A DNA stretch of 64,000 nt, from positions 4,030,001-4,094,000 of the forward strand of contig NZ_BAABKV010000001.1 of NCBI RefSeq assembly GCF_039544005.1. The letters are read 5' to 3'. Under the pieces are notes generated by a model, which did not search any database, was not told where the DNA came from, and saw nothing but the letters and a program-made list of their open reading frames with translations. Position numbers and translations under genes: made by a program. The DNA comes from Kitasatospora paranensis (GTDB lineage: Bacteria > Actinomycetota > Actinomycetes > Streptomycetales > Streptomycetaceae). Below are positions 2,251 through 11,553 of the stretch, piece by piece (positions within the stretch are counted from its first letter, which is position 1; each line of letters opens with the position of its first letter).

Positions 2251-2826
2251 TCACCTCACCCCGGCTACCTCCCGGGTGAGGAAGACCAGCCGGGCGCGCT
2301 TCTCCGGCTTGTCGATCTCCGGGCCGAGCTCGAAGCCGCTGCGCAGCAGCCGGGCGATCGCCCGGTCGTTGCGGGCGTCGGGCTCGGCCACCACCCGCCG
2401 GCGGGCCGGATCGGCGAGCACGAAGCGCAGGAAGACACCGATCAGCCGCTCGGTGAAGCCGGGTTCGGCGGCGCCCTCGGCGGGGCCGATCAGCAGGTGG
2501 ACGCCGTGGTCGCCGGGAAGGACCCGATAGCACTCGCCGACCGGGTCGTGCGCGGGCTCGTAGGTCTGGAAGAGCGCCACGGGCGTACCGTCGCGCAGCG
2601 CCAGGAAGGCGTGATGGGTGCTCAGCGAGCCGACGAACTCGTAGACCTCCCTGACCTGTTCGGGGCTGTGGTCGAGCATGCCCCAGAACCGGGCGCGCTC
2701 CTGGGTGACCCAGCCGTGCACCAGTGCGGCATCGGCGGCCGGGTCGAGCGGGACAATCCGGACGCGTCCGAAGCCGGGCACCCGCTCCTCGTGGGCGGCG
2801 GGCCTGTCGGCGGGCTCAGTGGGCAT
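2251..2826 (-). CDS. GNAT siderophore-type N-acyltransferase (second acyltransferase of the des locus)
   Basis: A 191-residue GNAT-fold acyltransferase of the IucB/MbtK/DesC-like siderophore group. Visible family features are the N-terminal VPLDPAADAALVHGWVTQERARFWGM block, a central GVHLLIGP strand and the C-terminal VVAEPDARNDRAIARLLRSGFELG followed by IDKPEKRA. The same blocks occur in DesC at 12875, so the locus holds two related acyltransferases. ATG at 2826 overlaps the acylase stop by 11 bases, so the two are translationally coupled at the end of the leftward siderophore operon. It probably transfers an acyl group from a CoA thioester to an amine or hydroxylamine of a siderophore building block. 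Substrate choice is inference. I recall similar acylase/acyltransferase pairs beside des clusters being called desG/desH. Confidence 0.85.
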   Translation of the reverse strand: MPTEPADRPAAHEERVPGFGRVRIVPLDPAADAALVHGWVTQERARFWGMLDHSPEQVREVYEFVGSLSTHHAFLALRDGTPVALFQTYEPAHDPVGECYRVLPGDHGVHLLIGPAEGAAEPGFTERLIGVFLRFVLADPARRRVVAEPDARNDRAIARLLRSGFELGPEIDKPEKRARLVFLTREVAGVR

Positions 2827-4876
2827 CGGACTCCTCGGTGAGCTGGTTCCAGTCGGTGGTCACGGGGACGAGTTCGCCGCTCAGCCAGAGCGGCAGCTGG
2901 TCGCGGCGGTGCGGGTGCCCGGGCACCCCGGACGCCCCGAACGGCACGACCCAGCCGCTGTCCTCCCGGCGGGCGAGGTCCCAGACGTAGCGGGCGGCCG
3001 GCCCGCGGGCACTGCGGTCGGTGAGCCCGGGGACGCTGGAGGTGGCGAGCACGCAGTCGTGGTCGCCGCCGAGCCGCGGCCAGGTGTCGTCCGCGTCCTC
3101 CGGCACCGCCTGCCACGGGGCGAGCCGGTGCCCGTCGCCCCAGGCCCCGGCCGGCTCGGCCGCCGCGGTCTCCTCGGCGGCGGCGCGCACCAGGGCGGCG
3201 CGGTCCACCCCCGGCAGCCGGTCGTGGCCGAGCACCGTCTCCAGCGCGTAGGCGACCCGGGGCAGCAGGGCCAGCCAGGGCCGGAACAGCGCGGGCAGGG
3301 GCGGCGGGTCGGCGAGGGCGGCCAGCGCGGGTTCGGCGGCCAACCGGCGGACCACCGCCGAGCGCAGTGCCGCGTACCGGGCCGCGTCGACGGAGTCGGC
3401 GGCCATCCGGCGGTCCCAGGCGAGCAGCCGCTCCCGCAGCCGGGCAGCCGGCGGCGTGAGCCCGTCGAGGCCTTCGAGCAGGGCCAGCAGCGGGGCGGCG
3501 GAGGCGAGGAAGGTGTCGGTGTGGATGTCCGCCATGTCCTTCGCCGTCCAGGCTCGCGGCCCGGCGAGCAGGTCGGCGATCCGGTCGGCGCGGTGCGGCG
3601 GGGCGAACTCCACGCCGAGCGGGGCGGCGAGGCCGCGCTGATTGGCCATCACGGCGGTACCGTCGACCCGGGCGCGCGGCATCCGGTGGCGGCCCTGCCA
3701 GGCGTGGCCGGGCTCCCAGGCGGGGACGGGCCGCAGGCTGTTCGCCCGGGCCCGCACCGGCACGATGCCGGCGACCCGGTGCAGCAGGCCACCGGCGGTG
3801 TCGGCGGCCTGGACGACGTTGACCGGCTCGGCCCAGTGGTCGAGGGCGGCGTCCACGTCGGCGACCGTCCGGGCGCGCAGCAGGGCGGGCAGGGCCGCGA
3901 AGCCGCACTCGCCGTCGGCCCGGGGCGGGTACCGCAGGCTCAGCACCTCGTGCGCGCCCCGGGCGGGGTCCGGGCCGCCGACGATCACCGGGCCGCGGTC
4001 GGTCTCCACCAGCTCGATCCGGACGGCCTCGGCGCCGGCGACCTCGACGGTCTCGGTGTGCACGGCGGCGGGCCGCCAGCCGTCCGGGCCGAGTGCCTCC
4101 ACGCCGTCGCCCCTACGGCGCAGTCGCTCCCGGTAGAGGTCCTGGTAGTCGGCCATGGCGTTGGTGATCGCCCAGGCGACCGGCCCGGCGTGGCCGAAGT
4201 GGCCGATGCCGGGGACACCCGGCACGGCGAGGCCCACCACGTCGAACTCCGGGCAGGCGAGCCGGATCTGCTGGTAGATGCCCGGGTCCTCGATGAACCG
4301 GTGCGGGTCACCGGCGATGAGGGCGGCGCCGCTCGCCGTCCGCTCGCCCGCGACGAGCCATCCGTTGCTGCCGGAGGTGCCGGGCCCGTCGGTGGCGAAC
4401 AGCTCGGTGTGCTCCTCGCCGAGCGCCCGGGCGACCAGGTCGCGCCAGAGCTTGGTGGGGAATCCTGCGAAGAGGATGTGGTGGCCGAGCCAGACCGCGA
4501 TCGGCGTCCACGGCTCCCACCGGCCTGGCGCCACCCCGGCCGCCACGAACTCAGGCGCGGAGGCCGGGATTTCGGCGAGACCCTGGTTCACGCCGTCGAC
4601 GTAGGCGCGGACCCAGCCGGCAGTGTCCGGGTCGAGGGCGGCGAAGCAGCGCCGGGCGGTGTCGGCGATGCGGGCGCGGCGGGCGAAGACGTCCCAGTCG
4701 AGGGCCTCGGCGCCGAGGAAGGCCGCCGAGGTGCCCTGCGCCCGGTGGCGTTCGACCTCGATCTGCCGGCCGCGGTCGGCGGCGGCGTTCCGCCCCTGCA
4801 GGCGGGCGAGTTCGAGCATCCCGTCGGCCCGCAGGTGGGGTATCCCCCAGGCGTCGCGGAAGACCCGGCCCGTCAC
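2816..4876 (-). CDS. Penicillin acylase-family Ntn hydrolase, no signal peptide (DesG-like)
   Basis: A 686-residue Ntn-hydrolase of the penicillin amidase family (S45). It opens VTGRVFRDAWGIPHLRADGM, the typical alpha-chain start. The nucleophile segment GTSGSNGWLVAGE places the autocatalytic Ser at about residue 170, and DPHRF follows. The GTG start at 4876 overlaps the ATPase stop as GTGA. Longer readings upstream run through the ATPase gene and were rejected. Unlike secreted penicillin acylases it shows no signal peptide, so it should act in the cytoplasm. It sits between siderophore-uptake genes and a siderophore acyltransferase. A role in releasing, editing or hydrolysing acyl or aryl amides linked to desferrioxamine is inferred from context. 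Beta-lactam activity is not implied. Confidence 0.85.
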   Translation of the reverse strand: MTGRVFRDAWGIPHLRADGMLELARLQGRNAAADRGRQIEVERHRAQGTSAAFLGAEALDWDVFARRARIADTARRCFAALDPDTAGWVRAYVDGVNQGLAEIPASAPEFVAAGVAPGRWEPWTPIAVWLGHHILFAGFPTKLWRDLVARALGEEHTELFATDGPGTSGSNGWLVAGERTASGAALIAGDPHRFIEDPGIYQQIRLACPEFDVVGLAVPGVPGIGHFGHAGPVAWAITNAMADYQDLYRERLRRRGDGVEALGPDGWRPAAVHTETVEVAGAEAVRIELVETDRGPVIVGGPDPARGAHEVLSLRYPPRADGECGFAALPALLRARTVADVDAALDHWAEPVNVVQAADTAGGLLHRVAGIVPVRARANSLRPVPAWEPGHAWQGRHRMPRARVDGTAVMANQRGLAAPLGVEFAPPHRADRIADLLAGPRAWTAKDMADIHTDTFLASAAPLLALLEGLDGLTPPAARLRERLLAWDRRMAADSVDAARYAALRSAVVRRLAAEPALAALADPPPLPALFRPWLALLPRVAYALETVLGHDRLPGVDRAALVRAAAEETAAAEPAGAWGDGHRLAPWQAVPEDADDTWPRLGGDHDCVLATSSVPGLTDRSARGPAARYVWDLARREDSGWVVPFGASGVPGHPHRRDQLPLWLSGELVPVTTDWNQLTEESDAH

Positions 4877-5688
4877 GCGGTGCGCTCCGGCGTACGGCGC
4901 CGCGCGGCCGGCACGACCAGCGGGGTGCCGGTCTCCGGGTCGTCGACGACCCGGCACGGCAACCCGAAGACCCGCTCGACCAGTTCGGCGGTGACGACCT
5001 CGGCGGGCGGACCGGCCGCGACCACCGTGCCCTCGCGCATGGCGATCAGGTGGGTGGCGTACCGGGCGGCCTGATTGAGGTCGTGCAGGACGGCGACCAG
5101 GGTGCGGCCCTGCTCCTCGTGGAGCCGGGCGCAGAGGTCGAGGACCTCGATCTGGTGGGCGATGTCGAGGTAGGTGGTGGGTTCGTCCAGCAGCAGCAGC
5201 GGGGTCTGCTGGGCGAGCGCCATGGCGATCCAGACGCGCTGGCGCTGGCCGCCGGAGAGTTCGTCGACCGGCCGGTCGGCGAGCTCCCCGACGCCGGTCG
5301 CGGCCATCGACCCGGTCACCACCCGTTCGTCCTCCGGCGACCACTGCCGCAGCAGGCCCTGGTGCGGATGACGGCCGCGGGCGACGAGTTCGGCGACGGT
5401 GATGCCGTCCGGGGCGATCGAGGACTGCGGCAGCAGGCCGAGGGTACGGGCGACCTGGCGGGCCGGTACGGCGCTGATGTCCCGGCCGTCCAGCAGGACG
5501 GTGCCCGCGGCGGGCCTGAGGGTGCGCGAGAGGGCGCGCAGCAGCGTCGACTTGCCGCAGGCGTTGGGCCCGACCACGACCGTGAAGGAGTGGTCGGGGA
5601 TGTCGACGCTCAACCCCTCGGCGATGGTGCGCTGGTCGTATCGGAGGGTGAGCTCCGCTCCGCGCAGGCGCGGTCCGCCCGGTTCCAT
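4873..5688 (-). CDS. Ferric-siderophore ABC transporter ATP-binding protein
   Basis: A 271-residue FepC/FhuC-type ATPase that energises import through the two permeases encoded just upstream. Walker A is GPNACGKSTLL (about residue 40), the signature is LSGGQRQRVWIAMALAQQ, Walker B is LLLLDEPTTYLD and the H-loop is VLHDLNQAARYA. The ATG at 5688 is preceded by GGAGT at good spacing. A longer in-frame extension lacks coding character and overlaps the permease. The stop overlaps the acylase start by four bases. It belongs to the leftward iron-regulated operon reading away from the iron box at 7879. Confidence 0.95.
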   Translation of the reverse strand: MEPGGPRLRGAELTLRYDQRTIAEGLSVDIPDHSFTVVVGPNACGKSTLLRALSRTLRPAAGTVLLDGRDISAVPARQVARTLGLLPQSSIAPDGITVAELVARGRHPHQGLLRQWSPEDERVVTGSMAATGVGELADRPVDELSGGQRQRVWIAMALAQQTPLLLLDEPTTYLDIAHQIEVLDLCARLHEEQGRTLVAVLHDLNQAARYATHLIAMREGTVVAAGPPAEVVTAELVERVFGLPCRVVDDPETGTPLVVPAARRRTPERTA

Positions 5689-5723: not shown

Positions 5724-6752
5724 TCAAATCCGGCCTGCCCTGCGCTCGGTGGCGAGCAGCCAGACCAGGTGGCCGCCGCCGAGGACGCCGGTGACGACGC
5801 CGACCGGCAGCTGGTGGCCGGGGAGGACCCGCTGCGCCGCGTAGTCGGCGGTGACCAGCAGGGCGGCGCCGGTGCACATCGCGGCGAGCAGGTTGGGGCC
5901 GGGCGCCCGGGTGAGGCGGCGGGCGAGCTGGGGGGCGGTGAGGGCGACGAAGGAGACCGGGCCGGCGGCGGCCGCGGCGAGCGCGGCGAGCAGGACGGCG
6001 CAGCCGAGCAGGGCCAGCCGGACGCGTTCGACCCGCACGCCGAGGCCGCTCGCCGCGTCGTCGCCCATCTCGATGACGCGCAGCGCGCGCCCGCAGCCGA
6101 GCAGCACGGCGGGGCCGAGCACGGCGAGGGCCACCAGCAGCGGTACGGCGTCGCGCCAGCCGCGGCCGTCGAGGCTGCCGGTCAGCCAGAGGACCGCACG
6201 GGCGGCGTCCATGAGCTGGGTGCGGGTCAGCAGGTAGCCGTTGACGCCGGTGAGGATCGCGGAGCTGCCGATGCCGATGAGGACGAGCCGGCTGCCGTGC
6301 ACCCCGCCCTTCCAGGCGAGGGCGTAGATGGCGGCGCCGCTGACCAGGCCGCCGAGCACGGCGCCGCCGGCCAGGGCCGCGCTGCTGCCGCCGGTGATCA
6401 CCACGATCAGGGCGCCGGCCGACGCGCCCTGGGTGAAGCCGAGCACGTCGGGGCTGCCGAGCGGGTTGCGGACGAGGGACTGGAAGAGTGCCCCGGCCAG
6501 CCCGAGCGCGGCGCCGACCAGCAGGGCCGTGACGACCCGCGGCAGCCGCAGCTGGTTGACGATGAAGTCCTCGGCCGGGGTGCCGCCGCCGGTGAGGGTG
6601 CGCACGACGTCGGCCGGACCGAGCGGGTAGTCGCCACTGCCGAGGGCGAGGATGCCGACGCCGAGCGCCAGCGCGGTGCAGGCCAGGCCGACGATCAGGG
6701 CCCGCGGGCGGAAGCGGACGGACAGGGTCGTCCCGATGCGGAGGGTGCTCAT
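5724..6752 (-). CDS. FecCD-family siderophore permease subunit 2
   Basis: A 342-residue polytopic inner-membrane permease of the FecCD/BtuC family with about ten membrane segments. Family blocks include LRLPRVVTALLVGAALGLAGALFQSLVRNPL, the IGIGSSAI/LTGSLDGRGW region and the C-terminal GPVSFVALTAPQLARRL. Its ATG at 6752 overlaps the stop of the preceding permease as ATGA, so the two should be produced stoichiometrically as a heterodimer. The next gene is the cognate ATPase, 35 bases on. Confidence 0.94.
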   Translation of the reverse strand: MSTLRIGTTLSVRFRPRALIVGLACTALALGVGILALGSGDYPLGPADVVRTLTGGGTPAEDFIVNQLRLPRVVTALLVGAALGLAGALFQSLVRNPLGSPDVLGFTQGASAGALIVVITGGSSAALAGGAVLGGLVSGAAIYALAWKGGVHGSRLVLIGIGSSAILTGVNGYLLTRTQLMDAARAVLWLTGSLDGRGWRDAVPLLVALAVLGPAVLLGCGRALRVIEMGDDAASGLGVRVERVRLALLGCAVLLAALAAAAAGPVSFVALTAPQLARRLTRAPGPNLLAAMCTGAALLVTADYAAQRVLPGHQLPVGVVTGVLGGGHLVWLLATERRAGRI

Positions 6753-7878: not shown

Positions 7879-7897
7879 TTAGGTTAGGTTAACCTAA
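7879..7897. promoter_or_regulatory. Iron box (DmdR/IdeR operator) between uptake genes and desE
   Basis: TTAGGTTAGGTTAACCTAA is a near-perfect 19-bp match to the streptomycete DmdR1/IdeR iron box (TTAGGTTAGGCTAACCTAA), differing at one central base. It lies 66 bp from the permease start on the minus strand and 48 bp before the desE ATG. One operator can therefore repress both divergent transcripts when Fe(II) is plentiful. Confidence 0.92.
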
Positions 7898-7945: not shown

Positions 7946-8991
7946 ATGCCCCGTTCCAGAACTGCCGCCCCCTCTCCCGTCGCGGCCTGCTCGCTGCCGG
8001 AGGCGCCACCGCCGTCGGCGCCCTGCTCGCCGCCTGCGGCAGCAACGGCAGTTCGGGATCCGACGCCGGCTCCCCGGCCAAGGCCACCGCGGCCGGCCCC
8101 TGGTCGTTCACCGACGACCGCAAGAAGGCCGTCACTGCCGAGAGCACACCCAGCCGGGTGGTCGCCTTCACCGGCACCGCGGCCGCCCTGGTGGACTTCG
8201 GTCTCGACAGGCAGATCGTCGGCGTCTTCGGCGAGACCAGGGCCGCCGACGGCAAGGCAGACCCGCAGGCCGGCGACCTCGACATCGGCAAGGTCGAGAT
8301 CCTCGGCAACGTCTGGGGCGAGTTCAGCGTGGAGAAGTACGCGGCGCTGCGCCCCGAACTGCTGGTGACCCACATGTACGACCCGGACGCCCTCTGGTAC
8401 GTGCCGGACGAGAGCAAGGACAAGATCCTCGGCCTCGCGCCGAGCGTGGCGATCACCACCGCCCGCGTCCCGATGACCACGCCGATCCAGCGCTACGCCC
8501 AGCTCGCCGAGTCGCTCGGTGCGGACCTGAAGGCCAAGAAGGTCACCGACGCCAAGGCCCGTTTCGAGGCCGCCGCCGAGGACCTGCGGCAGGCCGCGAA
8601 GGCGGCCGGCGGCATCAAGGTGATGGCCGCCTCCGGCAGCCCCGACATCTTCTACGTCTCCAACCCGAAGATCGCCACCGACCTGCTCCACTTCTCCGAA
8701 CTCGGCGTGGACTTCGTGGTGCCGACCAAGCTGGAGGCCGGTGACTACTACGAGGCGCTCAGCTGGGAGAACGCGGGCAAGTTCGCCGCCGACCTGATCA
8801 TCCTGGACAAGCGCAGCACCGCGCTGCAGCCCAAGGACCTCGCCGCCAAGCCGACCTGGGCCCAGCTGCCCGCCGTGAAGGCCGGCCAGGTCGTCCCGTG
8901 GGACTCCGTGCCCCGCTTCTCCTGGGCGGGCGCCGCACCGCTGCTGGAGAACCTCGCCAAGGCCATCCGCTCCGCGAAGAAGGTCGGTTGA
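7946..8991 (+). CDS. desE: Ferrioxamine-binding lipoprotein DesE, frame broken near the N-terminus
   Basis: A siderophore-binding lipoprotein, about 348 residues after correction. From ATG 7946 the frame reads MPRSRTAAP; the rest of the protein is in the frame holding SRRGLLAAGGATAVGALLAAC, a twin-arginine-like leader with a lipobox Cys. One extra C in the C5 run at 7968-7972 joins them as MPRSRTAAPLSRRGLL. No usable start exists in the downstream frame before GTG 8158, which would remove the leader. The mature part has the FepB/FhuD-type fold with VVAFTGTAAALVDFGL, LRPELLVTHMYDPD and PKIATDLLHFSELGV. It sits 4 bases before desF and behind the iron box. The defect is more likely a sequence error than a real pseudogene. 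Confidence 0.85.
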
Positions 8992-8995
8992 CGCC

Positions 8996-9861
8996 ATGAG
9001 CAGCCAGTCCGAGATCGCCGCACAGTACGGGTTCTTCGAGGCGCGGGTCGTCCGCAGCCGGCGCCTCGGTCCGACCATGGTCCGGGTGACCTTCGGCGGC
9101 GAGCAGTTGAAGGGCTTCGCCTCCGGCGGCCGGGACCAGAGCTTCTCGCTCTTCCTGCCGCACCCCGGACAGGACGCCCCCGTACTGCCGATCGAGGAGG
9201 GCGAACACTGGTTCACCGCCTGGCGCGCGCTGCCGGAGGACGTCCGGGCCGTGATGCGCTCGTACACCGTCCGCGCGCAGCGCCGTGAACCGGACGAGGT
9301 GGACGTGGACTTCGCGCTGCACGGCCTTGCCGGCCACGGCACTGCGGGGCCGGCCGCCCGGTGGGCCGCCGGGGCCGCGCCGGGCGACCGGGTCGTCCTG
9401 CTCGGGCCCGCTGTCGAGGACAACCGCAGCGTCTGCTTCCGCCCGCCGGCCGGCACCGACTGGGTGCTGATCGCGGCCGACGAGACCGCCCTGCCCGCCG
9501 CCGGAGGCATCCTGGACGAGCTGCCGGCCGGCACCGCGGCCCGGGTGTGGATCGAGGTGCCGCACGCCGAGGACATCCAGGACTTCGAGATCGGCGCCGA
9601 CGTCGAACTCACCTGGCTGATCAGGGATGCGGGTACGACACCGCTGGTGGAGGCGGTCCGCGGCGCGGACCTGCCCGCGGGCGCCCCGTACGCGTGGATC
9701 GCCGGCGAAGCCGGCAGCGTGCGGCGCTGCGGCGCCATCTGGTCGGCGAACGCGGCATCGACCGGCGCGCGGTCACCTTCTCCGGCTACTGGCGCCGCGG
9801 TGCCTCCGAGGAGCAGCTGCGGCTGGAGGCGATGTCCGGCGACGCCTCCGACGAGGAGTGA
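8996..9861 (+). CDS. desF: Siderophore-interacting protein (ferric-siderophore reductase) DesF, frameshift near C-terminus
   Basis: About 288 residues of the SIP/ViuB FAD-binding ferric reductase family, expected to release iron from imported ferrioxamine. The FAD domain has MRSYTVRAQRREPDEVDVDFALHG; the C-terminal part has WVLIAADETALPAAGGILDELPAG and PYAWIAGEAGSVR. At 9722-9725 the reading jumps frame: GTGCGGCGCTG needs one more G to give SVRALRRHLVGERGIDR, and the other frame then runs to the TGA at 9861 with the conserved ending FSGYWRRGASEEQLRLEAM. Without correction the protein would end in unrelated sequence at 9943. ATG 8996 follows the desE stop by four bases, so the genes form one operon. 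Confidence 0.88.
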
Positions 9862-9939: not shown

Positions 9940-9958
9940 TTAGGGTAGGCTAACCTAA
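9940..9958. promoter_or_regulatory. Iron box upstream of desA
   Basis: TTAGGGTAGGCTAACCTAA matches the 19-bp iron-box consensus at all but one position. It begins 55 bp before the desA ATG and should allow iron-dependent repression of desABCD and the downstream exporter by a DmdR/IdeR protein. Confidence 0.92.
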
Positions 9959-9994
9959 GTTCAATCCCCCGTCCGCAACCGTTGAGGGCTGACC

Positions 9995-11553
9995 ATGACT
10001 TTCCAGGGCCGTACCGTCGAGGTCCCGTCGGCAGGCACCACCCCCTGGTGGACGCGAGAGCGCACCTGTTCAACGGCGCAACGGTGGAGGACTACCGACG
10101 GTCCCTCACGGCCGGGATCGACCGCGTCGCCGCCCGGATCGCCGGCACCGAGCGGCCGTTCACCGGAATCACCCCCGACCGGCTCGCCCCCGAGATATCC
10201 GCCGTCGACCTGGACCGCCCGCTCGGCGACCCGGCCGAAGCCCTCGCCGAGCTGGAGGACGTCTACCTCCGCGACGCCGTCTACTTCCACCACCCCCGCT
10301 ACCTCGCCCACCTCAACTGCCCGGTGGTCATCCCCGCACTGCTCGGCGAGGCCGTCCTCACCGCCGTCAACTCCTCGCTGGACACCTGGGACCAGAGCGC
10401 CGGCGGCACCCTCATCGAACGCCGCCTGATCGACTGGACGGCCGAGCGGATCGGCCTCGGCCCGGACGCCGACGGCGTCTTCACCAGCGGCGGCAGCCAG
10501 TCCAACTTCCAGGCCATGCTGCTCGCCCGCGAGGAGGCCTGCGACCGGGCCTCCGCCGACTCACCCGTGCCGATCGCCAAGCAGGACATCCTGCCGCGCC
10601 TGCGCATCATCGCCTCCGAGGCCGGCCACTTCAGCGTGCAGAAGTCCGCGAAGATGCTCGGCCTCGGCCCGGACGCCGTCATCACGGTCGGCACCGACCG
10701 GCACCGCAGGATGAACCCCGCCGCACTCGCCCGCGAGATCGACCGCTGCCGCCGCGAGGACCTTCGGGTGATGGCCGTCGTCGGCACCGCCGGCACCACC
10801 GACTTCGGCTCCATCGACCCGCTCCCGCAGATCGCCGACCTGTGCGCCGACGCGGGCCTGTGGCTGCACGTCGACGCCGCGTACGGCTGCGGCCTGCTCG
10901 CCTCGCGCACCCGCCGCGACCTGCTCGACGGCATCGAGCGGGCCCACTCGGTCACCGTCGACTACCACAAGTCCTTCTTCCAGCCCGTCAGTTCCAGCGC
11001 CCTGCTGGTCCGGGACGGCGCCGCGCTCCGGCACGCCACGTACTACGCCGACTACCTCAACCCGGCCCGGATGGCGAAGCGCCGGATCCCCAACCAGGTC
11101 GACAAGTCCGTCCAGACCACCCGCCGGTTCGACGCCCTCAAGCTCTGGCTGACCCTGCGCGTCATGGGCGCCGACGCGATCGGCGCGCTCTTCGACGAGG
11201 TCGTGGACCGCGCCACCGAGGCCTACGACCTGCTGGCCGAGGACCCGCGCTTCGAGGTCGTCACCCGCTCCCAACTCAGCACCGTCGTCTTCCGCTGGCT
11301 GCCGCCCGCCGGCCCGCTGCGGGCCCTCGCCGACGAGGCCAACCTGCACGCCCGCGAGGCCCTCGCCGCCTCCGGCGAGGCCGTCGTCGCCGGCACCAAG
11401 GTCGACGGCCACCACTACCTCAAGTTCACCCTGCTCAACCCGGAGACCACGCTGGACGACATCGCGCACGTCCTCGACCTCCTCGCCGAGCACGCCGGCC
11501 GCTACGTCAACGACCGGACGGCCGCCCCCGAACTCTGCCGCGCCGCCGGCTGA
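9995..11553 (+). CDS. desA: Lysine decarboxylase DesA (PLP-dependent), N-terminal frameshift
   Basis: A group II PLP-dependent decarboxylase, about 519 residues after correction, making cadaverine from lysine for desferrioxamine synthesis. Conserved blocks are [56 protein letters not shown] and the PLP-lysine motif [16 protein letters not shown] 9995 follows a GAGGG site, but its frame reads only to the C5 run at 10041-10045; adding one C gives [22 protein letters not shown] in the main frame. A TTG at 9982 keeps the main frame without repair but gives an unrelated, Arg/His/Pro-rich N-terminus, so it is less likely. First gene of desABCD. Confidence 0.92.

Follow-up and report, generated by a model that had tools for sequence, protein, structure and literature searches.

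Organisation of the locus

The window, a stretch of 64,000 nucleotides from Kitasatospora paranensis, contains a five-gene operon of the order FecCD-FecCD-ATPase-desG-desH, with desG and desH at its 3' end and the desferrioxamine genes desABCD beside it. The features of the locus, in window coordinates, are the following.

2251..2826, minus strand: desH, GNAT acyltransferase of the DesC kind, 191 aa, PF13523
2816..4876, minus strand: desG, leaderless S45 Ntn amidohydrolase, 686 aa, GTG start, nucleophile Ser170 (beta-1) and Arg193 (beta-24)
4873..5688, minus strand: ferric-siderophore ABC transporter ATPase, overlapping the start of desG (GTGA)
5724..6752, minus strand: FecCD-type permease, PF01032
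6749..7813, minus strand: FecCD-type permease, first gene of the leftward operon, PF01032
7879..7897, no strand assigned: predicted iron box (DmdR1/IdeR-type operator) between the divergent operons, 1 mismatch to consensus
7946..8991, plus strand: siderophore-binding lipoprotein, desE-like, PF01497 on 8158-8988
8996..9861, plus strand: siderophore-interacting reductase, desF-like, PF08021/PF04954, frameshift near 9724
9940..9958, no strand assigned: predicted iron box upstream of desA
9982..11553, plus strand: desA-like PLP decarboxylase, PF00282
11586..12878, plus strand: desB-like N-hydroxylase, 430 aa
12875..13444, plus strand: desC, N-hydroxycadaverine acyltransferase, PF13523
13441..15216, plus strand: desD, NIS synthetase, PF04183 and PF06276

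The final junctions of the operon are overlaps: the GTG of desG shares a GTGA junction (4876/4873) with the TGA of the upstream ATPase gene, and the ATG of desH lies inside desG, giving the overlap between an S45 enzyme and a DesC-like GNAT that the initial annotation had pointed out and that measures 11 nt. The same annotation placed these genes within a siderophore regulon, a setting borne out by the two iron boxes in the window, where 0 are expected by chance. The box at 7879-7897 is located 66 bp ahead of the first gene of the leftward operon, which is thus predicted to be under DmdR1-type control, and separates it from the divergent binding-protein and reductase pair, whilst the box at 9940-9958 precedes desABCD.

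DesG is a leaderless S45 amidohydrolase

In a profile search, DesG matches PF01804 with 510 bits over residues 4-680, and Ser170, which the initial annotation had correctly taken for the Ntn nucleophile, opens the beta chain at GTSG/SNGW within a full-length S45 fold. The G-S-N-x-W site is conserved, and autoproteolysis into alpha and beta chains is predicted to occur there. The best 80 DesG orthologues are 64-80% identical.

The signal peptide typical of secreted penicillin acylases was not found on DesG. The highest hydrophobicity over 12 residues near its N-terminus is 0.36 on the Kyte-Doolittle scale, compared with 3.66 for the strongly hydrophobic N-terminal stretch of the other S45 protein of this genome, which served as a positive control. 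DesG starts about seven codons ahead of a conserved D-x-W-G-[IV]-P-H motif; its orthologues have this start available as well, and 44 of 80 orthologous desG loci have an in-frame stop no more than 15 codons upstream of it, leaving no room for a hidden leader there. A missed upstream signal peptide is therefore ruled out by the family starts and upstream stops; the initial annotation had held that the enzyme lacks a leader, a claim that would have fallen with a cleavable signal peptide on correcting the start, and it stands. The second, distant S45 acylase of this genome (L002/L003; G000:C1:4948740-4950569) is a 923-codon frame with a hydrophobic N-terminal segment and a Leu at beta-24.

Among solved sequences, the nearest to DesG is PDB 35sz (398 bits for the beta and 119 bits for the alpha chain), a "Penicillin acylase family protein", and the nearest with a known substrate are the class III glutaryl/cephalosporin acylase 4hsr and the D-succinylase 7eby. 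The AlphaFold model of DesG (mean pLDDT 79.8) has as its best fold match, among rows that do not include 35sz, the D-succinylase (Z 30.1, 3.2 A, 653 residues aligned, 26% identity), with the glutaryl acylases following by 1-3 Z units, a gap so small that the order among these matches is not strong evidence. This full-length match, the enzyme of Cupriavidus sp. P4-10-C (PDB 7eby/7ea4), carries H23-R24 in its beta chain; it differs in that its chain begins about 45 residues ahead of the DesG start and includes a long alpha/beta spacer, and its substrates are N-succinyl amino acids, not hydroxamates (PMC11241749 and its name). The class III glutaryl-7-ACA/cephalosporin acylase (PDB 4hsr/4hst) is 35% identical to DesG over the beta chain and conserves R24, but has a longer N-terminus, so that DesG residue 4 corresponds to chain residue 33, and a His at beta-70 where DesG has Asn239. 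A PvdQ-like identity was rejected, DesG scoring 24.9 bits with the NCBIfam model NF051460 against a cut-off of 950 bits.

R193 at beta-24 is invariant in 52 of 52 aligned DesG rows. The Arg is common to 35sz, 4hsr and 7eby; the position is Leu in the other S45 protein of this genome and Phe in PvdQ, where, according to the title of 4bth, a change at this position together with one other altered specificity. On these alignments, R193 of DesG may hold the succinyl carboxylate of its substrate, although a beta-24 Arg may also reflect shared ancestry rather than a succinate anchor. The literature searched yielded no paper on Arg24 in cephalosporin acylases and none on N-hydroxycadaverine with a penicillin acylase.

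DesH is distinct from DesC

DesH matches PF13523 with 163 bits in a profile search and shares 43% identity with the DesC encoded in its own cluster. In a quick tree the two form separate clades (100% SH-aLRT), which rules out DesH as a recent duplicate of DesC. They also differ in class-specific conserved residues (DesH/DesC: G49/M41, A84/F76, Q87/E79 and T88/R80), so that DesC has E79-R80 where DesH has Q87-T88. Such differences could mark donor specificity. The nearest solved relative of DesH, the acyltransferase domain of DfoC (5o7o), belongs to the same GNAT family; DfoC resembles DesC yet lacks the Arg found in DesC, and no claim about donor specificity is therefore made from these positions.

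Distribution and gene context of desGH

A phylogenetic profile was obtained for 150 genomes of the same family, taking as desD orthologues proteins of 60% identity or more. desG is present in 35 genomes and a desD orthologue in 61, which include all 35 with desG; desG occurs in none of the 89 genomes without desD (Fisher's test P = 6e-18, ignoring genome relatedness). The other 26 genomes have desD alone, the pattern expected of strains limited to DFOE. A DesH match is present in 34 of the 35 desG genomes.

Eighty desG loci of GTDB genomes were surveyed: desH is the neighbour of desG in 79, and the exception (L078) ends at a contig edge just after desG. Eight loci carry in-frame DesG-DesH fusions, and on a quick tree the fused state must have changed at least five times to fit the well-supported branches; fusions had already been named in S. 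atratus and Micrococcus (PMC12161575). In 72 loci an iron box is located no more than 1.5 kb upstream of desG, and the remaining eight have one in the same locus upstream of importer genes (four) or of desA (four). An iron box upstream of S. venezuelae desG was noted earlier (PMC6401478). In most loci desGH is a separate unit with an iron box of its own in front; desGH follows desABCD in four (L027, L032, L055, L060), is divergent from it in three (L019, L035, L038) and has importer genes directly upstream in four others besides the window (L007, L008, L053, L066).

Relation to the published DesG/DesH system

The pair in the window consists of orthologues, an ordinary copy of the published desG and desH, and is not new. 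The labels desG and desH, which the initial annotation had given, are the published names (PMC12161575). The genes share with S. coelicolor desG and desH (SCO4049/SCO4050) their families (PF01804 and PF13523), gene order, iron-box control and co-occurrence with desABCD, and the locus has the arrangement by which that work recognises the system, a PF01804 protein with a PF13523 gene at most 1 kb away, in a genome that here encodes desABCD at the same locus. DesH, in turn, is a PF13523 protein whose gene overlaps desG and which groups apart from DesC. The two systems differ in context: S. coelicolor has a separate desJGH locus, whereas in the window desG and desH close an operon of siderophore-importer genes adjacent to desABCD.

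In S. coelicolor, desJ, desG and desH have been inactivated (PLoS Biol 2025, PMC12161575). Desferrioxamine B (DFOB) fell about 1000-fold in the desG mutant and 16-fold in the desH mutant, DFOE rose on inactivation of desG or desH, and complementation restored DFOB. The authors proposed that DesG desuccinylates N-hydroxy-N-succinylcadaverine (HSC) and that DesH acetylates the freed amine, and they found only uncapped DFOs in nine producers without desGH. The same paper cites DesD work according to which the HSC/HAC ratio governs DFOB formation. A point against desGH as the explanation is that two strains of S. globisporus with identical desABCD clusters were reported to make DFOE in one case and DFOB in the other, a difference that the authors put down to CoA pools (PMC12525621). 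A search of the literature turned up no biochemical work on DesG or DesH.

DFOB is a linear iron chelator and a medicine for iron overload, and the choice between it and DFOE has been explained only recently; the present locus confirms the desGH pair as widespread.

A probable cytoplasmic acyl exchange for desferrioxamine B

Taken together, DesG and DesH probably exchange acyl groups in the cytoplasm and in this way provide the monomer that caps the DFOB chain. Iron limitation would induce desGH through the DmdR1 iron box. DesC would mostly succinylate N-hydroxycadaverine to HSC, which DesD would trimerise to cyclic DFOE; DesG, presumably self-processed as an Ntn-serine amidohydrolase and retained in the cytoplasm, would hydrolyse the succinyl hydroxamate of HSC, its putative substrate, back to N-hydroxycadaverine, with Arg193 (beta-24) perhaps holding the succinyl carboxylate. 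DesH would then acetylate N-hydroxycadaverine, with acetyl-CoA as the likely donor, to give HAC, the end unit that DesD would use for linear DFOB. Support from the present analysis comes from orthology, the leaderless start, iron-box linkage, co-occurrence with desD and recurrent fusion, and support from others comes from the requirement for desG and desH in DFOB production in S. coelicolor and from complementation. The initial annotation had suggested that a hydrolase and a transferase exchange acyl groups in the cytoplasm, which agrees with both the published genetics (PMC12161575) and the comparative data. Such a pathway would be an unusual editing cycle in biosynthesis, in which succinyl-CoA is spent, the product hydrolysed and the amine re-acylated. 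R193 adds to the known system a concrete residue through which the role of DesG as a desuccinylase can be tested.

The exchange need not take place on the monomer. DesG could take the succinyl group off the end of linear trimers, or open and trim them, after which DesH would cap the hydroxylamine with acetyl to yield DFOB. The active sites of related acylases do accept bulky amine leaving groups, the cephalosporin nucleus for example. This order also predicts the published phenotypes, loss of DFOB with a rise in DFOE (PMC12161575), and in the published model exchange on monomers and exchange on assembled chains are indistinguishable. We nevertheless regard it as unlikely, given the dependence of DFOB formation on the HSC/HAC ratio that is cited in the same paper and the fact that a hydroxamate built into a chelating chain makes a less straightforward substrate. 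A related reading, of comparably low probability, makes DesG a cytoplasmic hydroxamate desuccinylase from the dicarboxylate-acyl branch of S45, with R193 as its anchor, which in importer-coupled operons would also remodel ferrioxamines, whether imported or assembled, turning for instance DFO-G or DFOE into DFOB-like chains, and would not be confined to the monomer.

Two further options raised in the initial annotation are not favoured, and both appear very improbable. DesG might install or trim aryl or long-chain acyl groups, giving arylated or fatty-acyl desferrioxamines. Phenylacetyl is the classical S45 substrate. Aryl units had indeed been proposed for DesG before (Cruz-Morales 2017, cited in both PMC12161575 and PMC6401478), and fatty-acyl- or aryl-capped DFOs have been reported from other strains (PMC12161575). 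However, S. coelicolor, where DesG is needed for DFOB, is not known to make arylated DFOs (PMC12161575); every DesG row carries Arg at beta-24, which in PvdQ is a position of specificity, and this residue recurs in enzymes acting on succinyl and glutaryl groups; and the loss of DFOB with a rise in DFOE points to succinyl-to-acetyl exchange. Equally doubtful is a recycling role, in which cytoplasmic hydrolysis of imported ferrioxamine by DesG would free the iron and DesH would detoxify or re-use the fragments. What speaks for it is gene order, desGH following FecCD/FecCD/ATPase importer genes in the window and in the four loci named above, but that coupling occurs in only 4 of the 80 other loci, most desGH pairs being alone or beside desABCD. 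A recycling defect would moreover not explain the lost DFOB biosynthesis of the mutants (PMC12161575), and a siderophore reductase gene for iron release is already present in the same locus.

Further observations

Two genes of the divergent operon are disturbed in frame. The reductase gene is shifted near 9724 (window 9720-9861), where the L007 and L008 orthologues align in two frames; either an indel from sequencing or a genuine loss could account for this. In the desE-like gene, the frame shifts between the ATG at 7946 and the mature part, so that the signal/lipobox segment (RRGLLAAGGATAVGALLAACG, window 7946-8047) is out of frame with that ATG; this second indel lies near a C-run, which makes an assembly error plausible. 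An MFS transporter of the drug-export kind apparently follows directly after desD (window 15216 onwards, plus strand, ORF to 16775, judged by eye) and is a candidate desferrioxamine exporter.

Second DesH-like GNATs without desG occur beside iron boxes at four loci (L146:7618-9056, L149:7113-7664, L151:7089-7661 and L150:6754-7317), with about 50-68% identity to DesH. In L146 the neighbours are a gene for a siderophore reductase and an ABC transporter of the peptide type. These four proteins are possibly acyltransferases for another hydroxamate siderophore. A further DesH-like GNAT, L147 (G111:C21:103144-103689), has 54% identity and comes from a genome without desG or a close desD orthologue.
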